64,000 nucleotides of DNA. Source: Candidatus Promineifilum breve. GTDB taxonomy: Bacteria; Chloroflexota; Anaerolineae; Promineifilales; Promineifilaceae. The notes beneath the pieces were generated by a model, which was not told the origin of the DNA, did no database searches, and was given only the letters and a program-made list of their open reading frames with translations. This document shows, in pieces, positions 21,081 to 62,298 of the stretch. Position 1 is the first letter of the stretch. Each line of letters starts with the position of its first letter. The DNA is taken from positions 2,954,726 to 3,018,725 of the forward strand of contig NZ_LN890655.1 in assembly GCF_900066015.1 (NCBI RefSeq). Reading direction: 5' to 3'. The position numbers and the translations under genes were made by a program.

Positions 21081-21201
21081 GAGCGGGGAGCGGGGGAGCG
21101 GGGGGGGCAGGGGGGCAGGGGGGCAGGGGGGCAGGGGAGAATCTCCCACTCGCCACTCGCCACTCGCCACCCGCCACCCGCCACCCGCTACTCGCCACTC
21201 T
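21081..21201. repeat. Composite repeat: GGGGAGC array (B) joined to ACTCGCC array (A2)
   Basis: 21081-21140 is a run of GGGGAGCGGGGGGGCAGG-like units. 21146-21201 is a run of CCACTCG/CCACCCG heptamers. The two families abut head to tail. The A2 part forms the last codons and the stop (AGT GGC GAG TAG on the minus strand) of the PBP2 gene. Confidence 0.85.
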
Positions 21202-26908: not shown

Positions 26909-27022
26909 GTGTAAGTGCGACGCACCTTCTGAGGTGCGTTGCACTTGAGGTGCGTCGCCCTTGAGGTGCGTCTCCCTTGAGATAATCAGGTGCGACGCAC
27001 TTCGGAAAGTGCATCGCACCTG
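26909..27022. repeat. AGGTGCGTCGCAC family inverted array (G)
   Basis: Units GTGCGACGCACCTTCTGAGG, GGTGCGTTGCACTTGA, GGTGCGTCGCCCTTGA and GGTGCGTCTCCCTTGA run left to right, with AGGTGCGACGCACTTCGG and AAGTGCATCGCACCT closing. Each unit is itself nearly palindromic. It lies between two convergent genes. Only one copy in the window. Confidence 0.8.
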
Positions 27023-37462: not shown

Positions 37463-40400
37463 TTATTCCGCCGCTTTGGGGATAGTGACACTATCCGGCA
37501 GCAGGGCGCGGCCGTCGGGTAGCAGGCCGTCGGGGGCGATGGCCTCCAGGCGCGCGCCGTCGTCGGGCCGGTAGAAGCCCGTCGCCAGCCGGTATTCGCC
37601 CGGCGGCAGCCCCACCAGATCAAAGGTCACCGCATCGGCCACGACTTCCCCGGCCGTCCATTGGCCGGTCGGGTAGCTGTTGCCGGCGGCATGGCCGTCG
37701 ATCTGGGCCACGACCGCGCCGGTGGCATCGATGAGGTGGACGAAGCGGGTGAAGTCGGTCGTCAGATCGGCTGGGGCCTGCCAGTAGAGGGTTAGCGCCA
37801 GCCGGTCGGCGCTCGTTGCCTGCGCCACGCCCTGCAACCAGATGAGATTGCGCCCCGCCTCATTGAAGCTGACGTCCAGGCGCGTGAGGTTGTCCGGCGT
37901 CGTGAAGTTCGGTTCCACCGCGCGGAAGGCGATCCCGCCCTCGGCCGCGGTCACTTCCCCCAGGCGGCGCGTCAGCAGGGTCGCGCCCGTGGTCGTGTCG
38001 TACAGGAGCATCACCAGCGAATAGGGCGGCGAGCCGGCTAGCGTCTCCGGCAAGCGCAACGCCAGCCAGTCGCGAATCGGCTCGTCCGGCGACCAGCCGT
38101 CGGTGGGCTGATAGCCGTAGCCCGGCTGCGTGTCGAGTTGGCTCAGCACCAGCCCTTCCCCATTCTGCAATCGCCAGGAGACCTGATAGCGCCCGCCCAA
38201 CGGCTGGTCGACCAACCAGGCGAAGCGGCCATCGAGCGTCGTCGGGTCGCGGACAACCATAGCCAGCGGACGAACATCCAACTCGGCCGCCGGCGTCTCC
38301 CCTGCCCCCCCGCTCCCCTGCTCCCCTGCTGCTGCCAACACCCTCACCGGCCGCAAAAACAACTCCCCCCGCGTGCCGCCCGACGGCAGGAGCGGGCGCG
38401 CGCCGTCGATGGTCAGGCGCGGGACGTAGAGGCCGGGCGGGGCATCGGGCGGCACGGGCAGCGCAAAAACGACCGATTCGTCGTTGAGGGTTTGGGTTGC
38501 CACAGCGATGACCGGCGGGTCAGCCGCGTCGTCGGGCGTGGGCCGGGCCAAGGCGGGCGTCACCAGCGCCAGCGTCGCCGCCGCCGCACTGCCCGGCGAG
38601 AGGCTGAGCGTGACGGTCAGCGTTTGCCCGGCGGACAGTTCTTCCGCGCTATAGCCATACTCGTGGAGGCGCGATCCGTCCTCAAAACCAACCCCGCCGG
38701 TATCGTGGTGCAGATAAGCCATTTGGGCGAAGTCCCACGTCAGGTCGCCCGGCGGCAATTGGCGCGGATCATTGCGCCATAGCAAGGCGAGGACAAACAA
38801 AAGGAGCACTCCCCCGCCGACAGACCACAGACCGCGCCCGGAAGAACGCTCCCCTGCCCCCTCTCTCCCCTGCTCCCCTGCTCCCCTGCCCCCCCGCTCC
38901 CCCGCCCCCCTGCCCGGAACCACAAGCAACACGACCACAACCACGACCGCCACCAACGACACCACCTCGGCCGCCACGCGAATGGGCGTGCGGCCAAGTT
39001 CCAGCGCCACGGTGTGATCGCCCGGCGGAATGGTCAGGGCCATGAGACCCGACGAGGGCAGCGGGCGCAGGTCGGCCGGTTGGCCGTCGATGGTCGCCCG
39101 CCAGCCGGGCCAGTAGAGCGTGGGGAAGCGCACCTCCGCGCCTTCGGCGGTGTCGATTTGCCACGTCTGTCGTGTTGCCCGGCGCTCCCGCAGTTCGGCC
39201 GATTGCAGCGCGCCGGACAGGGCCACCAGGCGGTCACGGTCGCCGGCATTGAGCCAGGCGCTCGTCCACGGCCGCGGGCTGGACGCGGGCGTCAGGTACT
39301 CGGCGCTGACCGTCGTGCCGATGTTGCCGGTGAACCATTCGTAGTGGGCCAGCCGCTCGGCGGTCACGTCGGCGTCGGTCAGGATGAGGTGATCGACCCG
39401 CAGACCGAGCAGCGCGGCGGCCAGCAGTACGAGACTTGCCAACCCGACCACGGCGGCGCGCGCGGCGGGCAGGGCCGTCGCCCGCGCCAACCCGCCGGTC
39501 AACAACGCCAGGAAGAACGACGCCACCGACAGGAAGCGCCATGGGAATTGGGCGAACGAGAGCAGGGGTAGGTGATCCCACAATGGCCGGGATAACGGCG
39601 TGATCATGAAGATGGCAATGAGGGCGGCGACGATGAGGAAGATGTCTGTAGCGGGTAGCGGGTGGCGGGTGGCGAGTGGCGAGTGGCGAGTGGCGGGTGG
39701 CGCGGTGGCGGTGGTTGGTCGTCTGGTGAGCAGTAGCGCCGCCGCGCCGGCCACGGCCAATAAGACCTGGACGAGGCCCAGACGAAAGGCCACGCCGCCG
39801 TCGGGGTTGTAGTCGAAGAGTAGTCCGCGCTGCATCAGGTCGAAGGCGCGGAAGTGGTTGCTATAGTGGAAGTAGCCCTCGGTGACCGGGCCGAGTTGGG
39901 CCAGCCCCTGCTCGGCTAGAGCGGGGATAAAGAACCAGGCGGCGAGGGCGAGGGCGAGGACGATGGCGGCCAGCGCGAAGAGCAGGGGAGCGGGGGGGGA
40001 GAAGCGCAGGGGAGCAGGGGGGCAGGGGAGCAGGGGAGAAGGGGAGCGATCGGCGGTCACCAATCGTATCCCCAGATAGAGGGCCAGGAACGGCGTGAAG
40101 ATGAGGGCCGAGATGTTGTGGCTGAGGATGAGCGCGGCGTAGGCCAGGGCGAAGAGGGCGATGGGGCGGGTGGTGGGTGGCAAGTGGCGGGTGGCGGGTG
40201 GCGCGTGGCGCGTGGCGAGTTGGGCGTTCTTTCCCCCCTGCTCCCCTGCTCCCCTGCTCCCCTGCGCCTTAGCCACCACCCCATCAGCCGCCAACAACAC
40301 CACCGGATAAAAAGCCATCGCCCAAAACTCGGCCAGCGAATCGCCGCGGACGTAGACGTTGACCATGTGGAACGGGGCAACCGTGTAGGCCACGGCGGCC

Positions 40401-40822
40401 AGCAGCCCGGCCCAGCGCGACCCCAGCCAACGCCGGCCGAGGTGGAACATGCCCAGCCCGGCCACGATGAATCCGGCCAACTGGGCCAGATGAATGGCGC
40501 GGACGAAGCTGAAGCCGAGGAAGCGGAAGGCGGCGGCGACGTAGATCGAGAGTGGGGCGTAGAAGTTGTAGAACGGGTAGCCGTAGCCGTAGTTGGCGTC
40601 GGGCATCCAGCGCACGGGGAAGTGCCCATCGGCCAGCGCGGCGGTCAACTGGTGCAGCCGTTGCAACAGGAAGGGGCTATCGCCGCCGCCGCGGGTGTTC
40701 AGCAGGCCCGGTTGTCCGATGGCCGGCCAGGCGGCGAGGACGGCGATGAGCACGACGGCGACCACCCACGGCCAATCGGGGCCGGGACGGCGGCGGCCGT
40801 TATCCTGTGGCGATTCACCCAT
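37463..40822 (-). CDS. Large PTPS_related-type membrane protein (GT-C-like), with in-frame repeat insertions
   Basis: 1119 aa. The N-terminal part (about 20-560) has a dozen helices and the PTPS_related/GT-C-like signature: GGGDSPFLLQRLHQL, FPVRWMPDANYGYGYPFYNF, YVRGDSLAEFWAMA. A C-terminal region (about 680-1119) has beta domains and DFAQMAYLHHD. A surface-polysaccharide or lipid glycosylation role is likely from the fold, but unproved. At least five low-complexity blocks coded by the intergenic repeat families lie in frame (about 186-220, 259-281, 370-392, 636-669 and 831-843). They contain GAGEQG, ATRHSPLATRH and SPSPLLPCPPAP-like peptides, probably in loops. The end is preceded by repeat C4. 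Confidence 0.72.
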   Translation of the reverse strand: MGESPQDNGRRRPGPDWPWVVAVVLIAVLAAWPAIGQPGLLNTRGGGDSPFLLQRLHQLTAALADGHFPVRWMPDANYGYGYPFYNFYAPLSIYVAAAFRFLGFSFVRAIHLAQLAGFIVAGLGMFHLGRRWLGSRWAGLLAAVAYTVAPFHMVNVYVRGDSLAEFWAMAFYPVVLLAADGVVAKAQGSRGAGEQGGKNAQLATRHAPPATRHLPPTTRPIALFALAYAALILSHNISALIFTPFLALYLGIRLVTADRSPSPLLPCPPAPLRFSPPAPLLFALAAIVLALALAAWFFIPALAEQGLAQLGPVTEGYFHYSNHFRAFDLMQRGLLFDYNPDGGVAFRLGLVQVLLAVAGAAALLLTRRPTTATAPPATRHSPLATRHPLPATDIFLIVAALIAIFMITPLSRPLWDHLPLLSFAQFPWRFLSVASFFLALLTGGLARATALPAARAAVVGLASLVLLAAALLGLRVDHLILTDADVTAERLAHYEWFTGNIGTTVSAEYLTPASSPRPWTSAWLNAGDRDRLVALSGALQSAELRERRATRQTWQIDTAEGAEVRFPTLYWPGWRATIDGQPADLRPLPSSGLMALTIPPGDHTVALELGRTPIRVAAEVVSLVAVVVVVVLLVVPGRGAGERGGRGAGEQGREGAGERSSGRGLWSVGGGVLLLFVLALLWRNDPRQLPPGDLTWDFAQMAYLHHDTGGVGFEDGSRLHEYGYSAEELSAGQTLTVTLSLSPGSAAAATLALVTPALARPTPDDAADPPVIAVATQTLNDESVVFALPVPPDAPPGLYVPRLTIDGARPLLPSGGTRGELFLRPVRVLAAAGEQGSGGAGETPAAELDVRPLAMVVRDPTTLDGRFAWLVDQPLGGRYQVSWRLQNGEGLVLSQLDTQPGYGYQPTDGWSPDEPIRDWLALRLPETLAGSPPYSLVMLLYDTTTGATLLTRRLGEVTAAEGGIAFRAVEPNFTTPDNLTRLDVSFNEAGRNLIWLQGVAQATSADRLALTLYWQAPADLTTDFTRFVHLIDATGAVVAQIDGHAAGNSYPTGQWTAGEVVADAVTFDLVGLPPGEYRLATGFYRPDDGARLEAIAPDGLLPDGRALLPDSVTIPKAAE
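38296..38330. repeat. CCCCTG/CTCCCCTG array inside the coding sequence (B)
   Basis: CTCCCCTGCCCCCCCGCTCC followed by CCTGCTCCCCTGCTGCTG. Read on the minus strand it gives AAGEQGSGGAGET in the large membrane protein. It matches the intergenic B family at 53377-53450 and 55458-55534. Confidence 0.85.
38818..38915. repeat. GACCACAGACC (J) plus CTCCCCTG (B) arrays inside the coding sequence
   Basis: 38818-38834 is CGACAGACCACAGACCG, as seen again at 52274-52290. 38848-38915 is a CTCCCCTGCC-type array read in frame as repeated GAGE/GRGAG units. Two families side by side within one gene. Confidence 0.85.
39649..39715. repeat. GTGGCGGG/GTGGCGAG heptamer array inside the coding sequence (A3)
   Basis: Nine to ten heptamers on the plus strand. 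Minus-strand reading gives APPATRHSPLATRHPLPATD. Same units as intergenic copies A1 and A5. The length keeps the frame. Confidence 0.88.
39980..40047. repeat. GGGGAGCAGGGG array inside the coding sequence (B)
   Basis: AGCAGGGGAGCGGGGGGGGA then GCGCAGGGGAGCAGGGGGGC and CAGGGGAGCAGGGGAGAAGG. Translated on the minus strand as SPSPLLPCPPAPLRFSPPAP. Confidence 0.85.
40165..40265. repeat. A4 heptamer array next to a B array, inside the coding sequence
   Basis: 40165-40221 is a GTGGCGGGTGGC/GTGGCGCG heptamer run. 40230-40265 is CCCCTGCTCCCCTGCTCCCC. As at 21081-21201, families A and B lie next to each other. The minus-strand protein reads SRGAGEQGGKNAQLATRHAP across the junction. Confidence 0.85.
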
Positions 40823-51978: not shown

Positions 51979-53376
51979 ATGGCCGAACGGGGTGAGCCGC
52001 TGAGCGACCGCGAACTGGAGGTGCTGAACCGTCTGGCGGTCGGGGAATCGAATAAGGCCATTGCCGATGGGCTGTCGATCAGCCCGTTGACGGTCAAAAC
52101 CCACCTGCGCAATATCTACACCAAGTTGGGCGTCTCCACCCGCACCGAGGCGATGACGGTGGCGCTCCAGCAGGGGGTCGTTGCCGTCCAGACCGCGGAC
52201 GGGCAAGCGACGGCCGACGAGCGACCACCGACCACGGACGGTGGGGTGACGAGTGAAGAGAAGACGGCCGACGACAGACCACAGACCACAGTCGAAGAGT
52301 CTCCGTCGTCCGTCGTCCGTCGTCCGTCGTCCTTCGATGCCCACCGCTGGCGCAACCTGAGTCTGGCCCTGCTGGGGCTGCTGGCGCTGTTGGTGAGTAT
52401 TTTTTCCTTTGTCCAATGGCGCGAAGGGGCGTTGTTAGCGCCGACGCCTGAGCCGTTTGCCGAGCAGACGCTGGGCGACACGCGCTGGCTGAGCAGCCGG
52501 CCGCTGCCGGAGGCGCGCGCCGGGCGGGCGGCGGCGGCCATCGGGCTGGACGTCTATCTCATCGGTGGCGAATCGGCCGCGGGGGTCAGCGATGCCGTGG
52601 CTATCCTCGATACTCAGACCCGCCAATGGCGACAGGCCACGGCCAAGCCGACGGCGGTCAGCGCGGCCACGGCCGCCGAGCTTTTCGGCGAGATTTACGT
52701 GCCCGGCGGGGCCACGGCCGGCGGCGCACCGACGACGGTGGTGGAAGCCTATAGCCCGGCGCAAAACGCCTGGCGGCGCGTGGCCCCACTGCCCCAGCCG
52801 GTGGCCGGCGGCCTGGCCGTGGTCGATGGCGGCTTCCTCTTCGTGTTGGGCGGCCGGGACGAGGCGGGCGCGCTGGACACGGCTTTTATCTACGACCCGG
52901 CCGCGGATAACTGGCGGCCCATTGCCCCCCTGCCCGCGCCGCGCGCCGATGCCGCCGGCGGCGCACTATTGGGCATGATCTACGTCGTGGGCGGCCGCGA
53001 CGGCGAGGGGCCACAGGACAGTTGCTTCGTCTATGACCCGGCGGCCGACGGCTGGGACGAATGCCCGGCCATGCTCCTGCCACGCGCCGGGGCCGGGGCC
53101 ACTGTCCTGCTGAACAAGCTCTACGTCGTCGGCGGCGCGGCCGGGCCGGAAGCGGCTCATGGCGAGGTCTACGAGCCGAACAGCCGCACGTGGACGGTGC
53201 TCGACGCCCCGCCCGGCAGCGGCGGCTGGACGGAACCGGGCGTGGCCCACGTGGAAGCGCGCATCTATGCCCTGGGCGGCCACGTCGGCGAGTCGCTGAG
53301 CGATGCCACGCTCATCTATGCGCCCCTGGCCTATCAGACGTTTATCCCCGCCGCGCCGTCGGATGTTGAGGAATAG
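51979..53376 (+). CDS. LuxR-type HTH - transmembrane - six-bladed Kelch protein
   Basis: 465 aa. Residues 8-64 are a LuxR/FixJ helix-turn-helix (LSDRELEVLNRLAVGESNKA, then LTVKTHLRNIYTKLGVSTRT). A 50-residue linker (70-122) is coded by repeat family J. One transmembrane helix (127-147) follows, then a Kelch-like propeller (about 165-455). Six blade cores are visible as hydrophobic-GG: VYLIGGE, IYVPGGA, LFVLGGR, IYVVGGR, LYVVGGA and IYALGGH. DNA binding in the cytoplasm with a sensor propeller outside suggests a ToxR/CadC-like one-component transmembrane regulator. Targets are unknown; amidase and L,D-transpeptidase genes follow. Confidence 0.8.
   Translation: MAERGEPLSDRELEVLNRLAVGESNKAIADGLSISPLTVKTHLRNIYTKLGVSTRTEAMTVALQQGVVAVQTADGQATADERPPTTDGGVTSEEKTADDRPQTTVEESPSSVVRRPSSFDAHRWRNLSLALLGLLALLVSIFSFVQWREGALLAPTPEPFAEQTLGDTRWLSSRPLPEARAGRAAAAIGLDVYLIGGESAAGVSDAVAILDTQTRQWRQATAKPTAVSAATAAELFGEIYVPGGATAGGAPTTVVEAYSPAQNAWRRVAPLPQPVAGGLAVVDGGFLFVLGGRDEAGALDTAFIYDPAADNWRPIAPLPAPRADAAGGALLGMIYVVGGRDGEGPQDSCFVYDPAADGWDECPAMLLPRAGAGATVLLNKLYVVGGAAGPEAAHGEVYEPNSRTWTVLDAPPGSGGWTEPGVAHVEARIYALGGHVGESLSDATLIYAPLAYQTFIPAAPSDVEE
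52190..52340. repeat. GACCACAGACC / GTCGTCCGTC array inside the coding sequence (J)
   Basis: Left side GACCGCGGACGGGCAAGCGA with GACGAGCGACCACCGACCAC; middle GACAGACCACAGACCACAG; right side TCCGTCGTCCGTCGTCCGTC. It makes the linker between helix-turn-helix and membrane helix of the LuxR-Kelch protein. A short copy is at 38818-38834. Confidence 0.8.
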
Positions 53377-53450
53377 CAGGGGAGCGGGGGAGCAGGGGAG
53401 CAGGGGAGAATCACTTCACCCCTGCCCCCCTGCCCCCCTGCTCCCCTGCC
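53377..53450. repeat. Inverted GGGGAGCAGGGG / CCCCTGCCCCCC array (B)
   Basis: CAGGGGAGCGGGGGAGCAGG with GGAGCAGGGG on the left; CCCCTGCCCCCCTGCCCCCC with TGCTCCCCTG on the right. The halves can pair. It begins at the LuxR-Kelch stop codon and ends at the amidase promoter. Confidence 0.88.
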
Positions 53451-55457: not shown

Positions 55458-55534
55458 AGAGAAGCAGGGGGGCAGGGGAGAGGGGGAGCAGGGGAGATTA
55501 TCACCCCTGCCCCCCTGCCCCCCTGCTCCCCTGC
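55458..55534. repeat. Inverted GCAGGGGGGCAGGGG / CCCCTGCCCCCC array (B)
   Basis: AAGCAGGGGGGCAGGGGAGA with GGGAGCAGGGGAGA on the left; CACCCCTGCCCCCCTGCCCC with CCTGCTCCCCTGCATTC on the right. It fills the gap between the L,D-transpeptidase and purA. Confidence 0.88.
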
Positions 55535-62210: not shown

Positions 62211-62298
62211 AGACCTGACAGGCGGGCGCACTCCCGTGCGCCCACTCCCGTGCGCCCACTCCCGTGCGCCCACTCCCGTGCGCCCACCTGTCAGGTCT
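62211..62298. repeat. AGACCTGACAGG palindrome around four 14-bp tandem units, family F copy 4
   Basis: Outer arms AGACCTGACAGG (62211-62222) and CCTGTCAGGTCT (62287-62298). Inside, the unit CTCCCGTGCGCCCA is repeated four times exactly (62231-62286). It follows the stop of the permuted ATP-grasp gene by 5 nt and may end that operon. Confidence 0.9.

Follow-up and report, generated by a model that had tools for sequence, protein, structure and literature searches.

Tandem heptamers and octamers dispersed over bacterial genomes have been known for decades and, to our knowledge, there is no agreed way in which they spread. Rickettsia palindromic elements, which are non-tandem and have a fixed sequence, are found in frame in many conserved proteins and are tolerated there; they are among the elements named in a review on MITEs (PMC10969869). 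The STRR heptamers of cyanobacteria and the GGGNATC repeats of Xanthomonas and Nostoc are G-rich 7-nt units that are dispersed and mostly intergenic (PMC4692102). The TAACTGA repeats of the Beggiatoaceae similarly form dispersed heptamer arrays, a few of them in ORFs, and an orientation-dependent stop filter has been noted for these (PMC4679880). REPINs are inverted doublets of short repeats, again dispersed and largely extragenic (PMC3116915), and in the DRT10 system short tandem-repeat DNA is made by 3' extension, the product being a protein-primed cDNA for defence (PMC12632851).

The genome of Candidatus Promineifilum breve, from which the window analyzed here (a stretch of 64,000 nucleotides) is taken, carries tandem repeats with a unit length of about 7 nt, spread over a large number of mostly intergenic sites, as in the STRRs. 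Judging by the available text of PMC4692102, the repeats described there resemble the present ones in their G-rich 7-nt tandem units and in their mostly intergenic, partly intragenic location, and the placement of the 5' edge near the gene that we observe agrees with that reported for Xanthomonas and Nostoc. Unlike those repeats as described in the same text, the ones examined here also occur as inverted pairs of fixed polarity, whose arms are independent or belong to different families, and include six in-frame arrays in a single gene, and the reloading of loops in orthologues that is apparent here is not described there. The Beggiatoaceae repeats lie mostly upstream of start codons, and a regulatory role has been proposed for them (PMC4679880), whereas those of the present genome show a polarity tied to the DNA edge and interrupt conserved domains.

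The gene with six arrays (37463-40822, minus strand) is, as the initial annotation had it, a single frame of 1119 aa that stays open through the repeats. It encodes a multi-spanning membrane protein of the PTPS_related family (PF10131; the score of 27.4 bits narrowly passes the curated Pfam cut-off of 26.4) with about 13 transmembrane segments predicted from hydropathy. All five blocks of repeats that had been assigned to this gene were reproduced by TRF. The first in the direction of translation combines an octamer array, (GGGGAGCA)3.9, at 40235-40265 (minus strand, 100% match, G-rich on the gene strand, aa 186-196) with a heptamer array, (GGCGGGT)7.6, at 40165-40217 (plus strand, C-rich on the gene strand). 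There follow 8.5 copies of the octamer, running opposite to the gene, at 39980-40047 (plus strand), which read PLLPCPPAPL in the loop at aa 259-281, and the heptamer array (GCGGGTG)8.6 at 39651-39711 (plus strand, also opposite to the gene), which reads ATRHSPLATRH in the loop at aa 369-392. At 38847-38915 (minus strand), 8.2 octamer copies in the orientation of the gene read GAGERGGRGAGEQG (aa 636-659) between two transmembrane segments predicted from hydropathy; the initial annotation rightly had this block start at 38818, the array being preceded by, and adjoining, two copies of GGTCTGT (38820-38833, minus strand; ACAGACC on the forward strand), which, from the sequence and the family census, belong to a third dispersed heptamer family. 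The last array, 4.2 octamer copies at 38297-38330 (minus strand), reads AAGEQGSGGAGE and lies in the soluble C-terminal part (aa 831-842). By hydropathy, four of the five blocks are located between predicted membrane segments, and the orthologue alignment places all five in loops of variable length, in agreement with the earlier suggestion of likely loops.

The units in the gene, that is, the octamer GGGGAGCA, the heptamer GGCGGGT/GGCGAGT and the two GGTCTGT copies, were said to be those of the intergenic repeat families, and indeed all three occur in hundreds of dispersed arrays. Because 7 and 8 are not multiples of three, one strand of such an array covers all three frames and yields one peptide. 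Depending on orientation, the octamer gives GEQGSRGA or CSPAPLLP and the heptamer gives G(G/E)WRVA(G/S) or TRH(P/S)P(P/L)A, all of them stop-free. The translations of the blocks (AQGSRGAGEQG, LATRHAPPATRHLPPTTRP, SPSPLLPCPPAPLRFSPPAP, TATAPPATRHSPLATRHPLPA, GRGAGERGGRGAGEQGREGAGER and AAGEQGSGGAGE) agree with the low-complexity peptides noted before, such as GAGEQG and ATRHSPLATRH. Since a single protein contains the octamer read in either direction, with unrelated peptides produced from the same DNA, what is conserved is the DNA. Selection at the protein level for the peptides of the blocks was rejected, given that the unit is read both ways and that the orthologues have other peptides.

Comparison of 30 loci, namely, this gene and 29 orthologues or partial orthologues from species-level relatives represented mostly by fragmentary assemblies, in which the loops align poorly, showed that other species and genera lack the five blocks or have, in their place, other 7- and 8-mers in the same loops (ATTCACA, TCTCCAA, GCATTAC, AGTGGGG and others). 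The loop at aa 181-224 contains, in orthologues, arrays of AGTGGGG, TGGCAAGT, GACGAGC with inverted TCACTCG, GTGGCGA, GGATTGC or AATGGTC, and the octamer array at 40235-40265 is missing from most of them. In the loop at aa 254-284, which corresponds to the query array at 39980-40047, there are arrays of ATTCACA, TCTCCAA, CCAATTA, CCAATCT or GCATTAC; two orthologues (L035 and L046) have 8-mers at aa 369-392, where the query has the heptamer; and the array at 38297-38330 is not present in orthologues, L036 having a TCAATCA array at this position. Altogether, 24 of the 29 period-7/8 arrays of the orthologues lie in the five loops, which account for 14% of the protein (p about 3e-16, for loops fixed from the query, a hand count and a statistic that ignores relatedness). 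Orthologues that keep the blocks with conserved amino acids, the finding that would have refuted the earlier inference, were not seen: the DNA unit is shared and the peptide is not. Of the 30 genomes, only G000, G004 and G007 have more than one octamer match, and these are the three in which the gene contains the octamer (p=0.0002, relatedness ignored); ATTCACA is present in the gene in G016, G019 and G034, all of which are among the nine genomes with at least 10 ATTCACA matches (p=0.02, relatedness again ignored). In the two families tested, then, the unit in the gene is a member of the lexicon of its own genome. The earlier inference that the repeats are active on evolutionary time holds only at the level of species, which is that of the relatives compared.

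The 20-nt octamer pattern GGGGAGCAGGGGAGCAGGGG has 446 matches with at most one mismatch in the 5.03-Mb genome, compared to none for the reversed control. In a census of 1.264 Mb of the genome (L061-L120), for which a home-made gene caller was used, 7-, 8- and 9-mers were the dominant short periods, with 224, 110 and 97 non-overlapping arrays, respectively. Only 18% of the 7-mer, 31% of the 8-mer and 13% of the 9-mer arrays were intragenic, against 81% expected from random 45-bp placements, so genes are strongly avoided. When the 78 intragenic arrays were redistributed 5000 times at random, with length weighting, no gene ever received more than 5, compared to the six in the membrane protein gene; two further genes, however, one coding for a DUF2298/PMT_2 membrane protein, hold 8 and 9 arrays.

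Units that bear stops are excluded from genes. For families in which every frame is closed by a stop whichever way the array lies, 0 of 31 arrays were intragenic; for those without a stop in either orientation, the figure was 59 of 212 (p=0.0002). For families open one way only, 12 of 14 intragenic arrays were in the open orientation (CAGTGGT, 3 of 3, and AATTACG, 6 of 6, in the stop-free orientation), and the two exceptions, both of CGTCATT, remain open because the TGA-giving unit is the variant AATTACG. The lack of stops is not sufficient for intragenic occurrence: GGGCAGT and CCACTGT are stop-free, yet none of their arrays was seen in genes in the 1.264-Mb census, which counts against the explanation that we favor below. 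The proposal of the initial annotation that repeats enter genes and are tolerated if their length keeps the frame is largely supported, with frame and stop codons filtering the survivors; from sequence comparison, short repeat arrays appear to keep landing in genes and to survive where they are harmless.

The description of a single invaded gene, although correct for this gene, is too narrow because many conserved enzymes carry interrupting arrays as well. Intragenic arrays were detected in or beside the conserved Pfam domains of MoeA (two inverted pairs), ThiD, the YfiH laccase, five ABC ATPases, DNA polymerase B and MmeI. MoeA is 74-79% identical within the genus. The sequences on either side of its insertion, VAVRPGHPVVLG and PIIGVPGYPVSAAL, hardly vary, while the stretch that they enclose consists of repeat-like peptides that differ among G000, G003, G006 and G007; in another family this stretch is short. 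In-frame insertion into MoeA, ThiD, YfiH, ABC ATPases and PolB is reminiscent of the Rickettsia palindromic elements, from which the present repeats differ in that their arms are tandem arrays of 7-9-nt units from many families. The data show that loops derived from non-coding DNA have been acquired by conserved enzymes repeatedly, and in parallel among related species. In practice, such arrays disturb both gene modeling and alignment for these genomes. ABC transporter genes (L078:2707-6610 and L080:14174-19181) contain differing arrays, including octamer array pairs, in the linker or at the start of the ATPase domain, and in a family B DNA polymerase gene (L105:7162-9459) the DFTSMYPSIM motif is closely followed by AATTACG and octamer arrays.

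Taken together, these observations make it probable that the blocks are STRR DNA that was acquired by the gene on separate occasions, was supplied from the lexicon of dispersed arrays and was kept where frame, stop codons and loop tolerance allowed. The supply would be a genome-specific set of 7-9-nt units, present as single arrays or as inverted pairs with the purine/G-rich arm first, and an array would survive in a gene if its length preserves the frame, if there is no in-frame stop in that orientation and if the peptide falls in a tolerant loop.

The initial annotation is to be amended in a further respect: the dispersed units often are polarity-fixed inverted pairs rather than simple arrays or free-standing satellites. 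Among same-family neighbors at most 60 bp apart, 97 were inverted and 10 direct; at distances of at most 40 bp, the order was 5'->3' in 97 cases and 3'->5' in none, the purine- or G-rich arm always being the first (5'), a 97:0 ratio that is a test of consistency within families, the family orientations having been set after the pairs were seen. For octamer pairs alone, the polarity was 21:0, a strong result by itself, and mixed-family pairs followed the same rule in 23 cases against 1, with 28 same-sense neighbors besides. Reference elements in the window are two intergenic inverted octamer array pairs, one with a 10-nt loop at 53375-53450, directly at the stop of the gene 51979-53376, and one with a 7-nt loop at 55463-55534, and a mixed-family element at 21081-21200, with the octamer as the 5' arm and the heptamer CCACTCG as the 3' arm. 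Within the membrane protein gene, the octamer at 40235-40265 and the heptamer at 40165-40217 are the 5' and 3' arms, respectively, of a mixed-family pair with the 5'->3' polarity. In the open-access literature searched for a mechanism of STRRs, no pairing rule is described. The same inverted pairs were not found in 0.4 Mb each of the relatives G006 and G013. The arms typically are 31-33 nt long for 7- and 8-mers and 26 nt for 9-mers; that arms of about 32 nt occur with both 7- and 8-nt units looks as though length were set by a ruler instead of by counting units.

The similarity between the two arms of one octamer element does not exceed that between arms from separate elements (p=0.42), and the same is the case for three other families, so that arms are independent in four of six families; in the nonamers and the AGTGG family, the arms of a pair are more alike than expected by chance. 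Fold-back copying between arms is rejected for the octamers on this ground. Among lone intergenic arrays, the 5' edge is nearer to the gene than the 3' edge in 52 of 71, whatever the orientation of the gene (p=0.0001). The combination of edge-tied polarity, independent arms and mixed pairs suggests that an array is added to each 3' end before joining: at a broken or gapped site, the 3' ends would be extended by the copying of pre-existing arrays, the templates presumably being other arrays, with the same 5'->3' sense of the added array on either side, and would then be joined at the short loop. The polarity rule, with the purine-rich arm first, independent arms and anchoring at gene edges, narrows the mechanism to DNA ends and is testable.

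No RVT_1, Ku or array-flanked Y1 transposase was found that might carry out end addition and joining, and the lack of RVT_1 and Ku counts against this mechanism. A profile search for RVT_1 (PF00078), which in the control detected the domain in three genomes, gave no matches in the 99.96% complete genome, and a diverged reverse transcriptase may evade this model; Ku was not found in the genome, and Ku-dependent end joining was rejected for that reason; and the three Y1_Tnp matches in the genome have no array units within about 1.5 kb on either side. Tentatively, and with a rather low probability, broken or gapped chromosomes might be healed by G-rich repeats on both 3' ends and then joined, the in-frame blocks being repair scars. 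It is equally tentative to suggest that this lineage and the cyanobacteria sharing the octamer practice such repeat healing in a manner akin to telomere healing, with neither a reverse transcriptase nor Ku detected.

It is rather unlikely, by comparison, that a transposase mobilizes the pairs as intact, non-autonomous palindromic elements, in the way in which RAYTs mobilize REPINs. Inverted pairs that are dispersed and largely extragenic are shared with REPINs, as far as these are described in the available text of PMC3116915, and their fixed polarity, the arms of about 32 nt and the Y1_Tnp matches are compatible with this possibility. The nonamers fit the copying of whole elements better than end addition, with their similar arms and conserved upstream leader, GAAGAGAAYC, and it is above all for these that a transposon-like element is possible. 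However, the arms here are tandem rather than non-tandem, pairs of mixed families are frequent, copies also occur in genes, the octamer arms are independent, and loops are not common to the copies. No target duplication was seen, in loops too variable to show a clean junction or duplication, and the lack of arrays around the three Y1_Tnp genes led us to reject RAYT mobilization.

Still less likely is purely local growth, in which replication slippage would have expanded a chance seed at each block and nothing would have moved from one site to another. The numbers of units do vary, slippage has been argued to be frequent for 7-nt units (PMC4679880), and the ThiD orthologue of G004 (L144) has a long local expansion; slippage probably acts on arrays already present. 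It does not account for one unit common to hundreds of sites or for a unit in the gene that changes with the lexicon of the species, and it cannot yield inverted, polarity-fixed pairs.

Retention of the arrays for a function, as terminators or 3' hairpins of mRNAs with the intragenic ones as by-products, is very unlikely. Intergenic pairs do lie just behind stop codons, at a median distance of 4 nt, and are rare at divergent promoters (4 versus about 35 expected), a placement that can be explained by terminator use or by selection against damage, and for which promoter avoidance accounts equally well. In contrast, the arms do not co-vary, lone arrays do not follow the direction of transcription (17 versus 33), and intragenic pairs would terminate genes such as moeA. 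Finally, synthesis by a telomerase-like reverse transcriptase with a short RNA template, followed by joining of the arrays into breaks, is hardly credible: the fixed polarity of G-rich 3' ends, unit lengths near the telomeric ones and the 9-nt tandem cDNA made by DRT10 are in its favor, but the absence of RVT_1 from our search, for which it was rejected as the leading idea, the many units per genome and the available text of PMC12632851, where no chromosomal writing by DRT10 is reported, all weigh against it.

Among the matches listed, Cyanobacteria often carry the octamer array, and there are scattered occurrences in Phycisphaerales, a zetaproteobacterium, a methylomirabilote and a few others. 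In the phylum to which the window belongs, it was present in 5 of 301 sampled genomes and, within the family, almost solely in this genus. In cyanobacterial loci with the same octamer, 12 of 12 skewed pairs were G-first.

Several additional features deserve mention. The leader of the nonamers is seen, for example, at C1a 124161 and 354835 and at C2a 273102, and nonamer elements, unlike the 7- and 8-mers, have a fixed order of the unit variants CACAGATTA, CACAGATTT and CACAGATT. In the 1.2 Mb, a short palindrome of the type GAAGAGCGCTCTTC recurs in the loops of inverted pairs that belong to several families unrelated to one another. The window also contains a perfect 14-mer tandem repeat, CACTCCCGTGCGCC, with 4.2 copies at 62229-62287, and a 16-mer tandem repeat with a palindromic core, GTGCGTCGCACCTTGAG, at 26915-26981.
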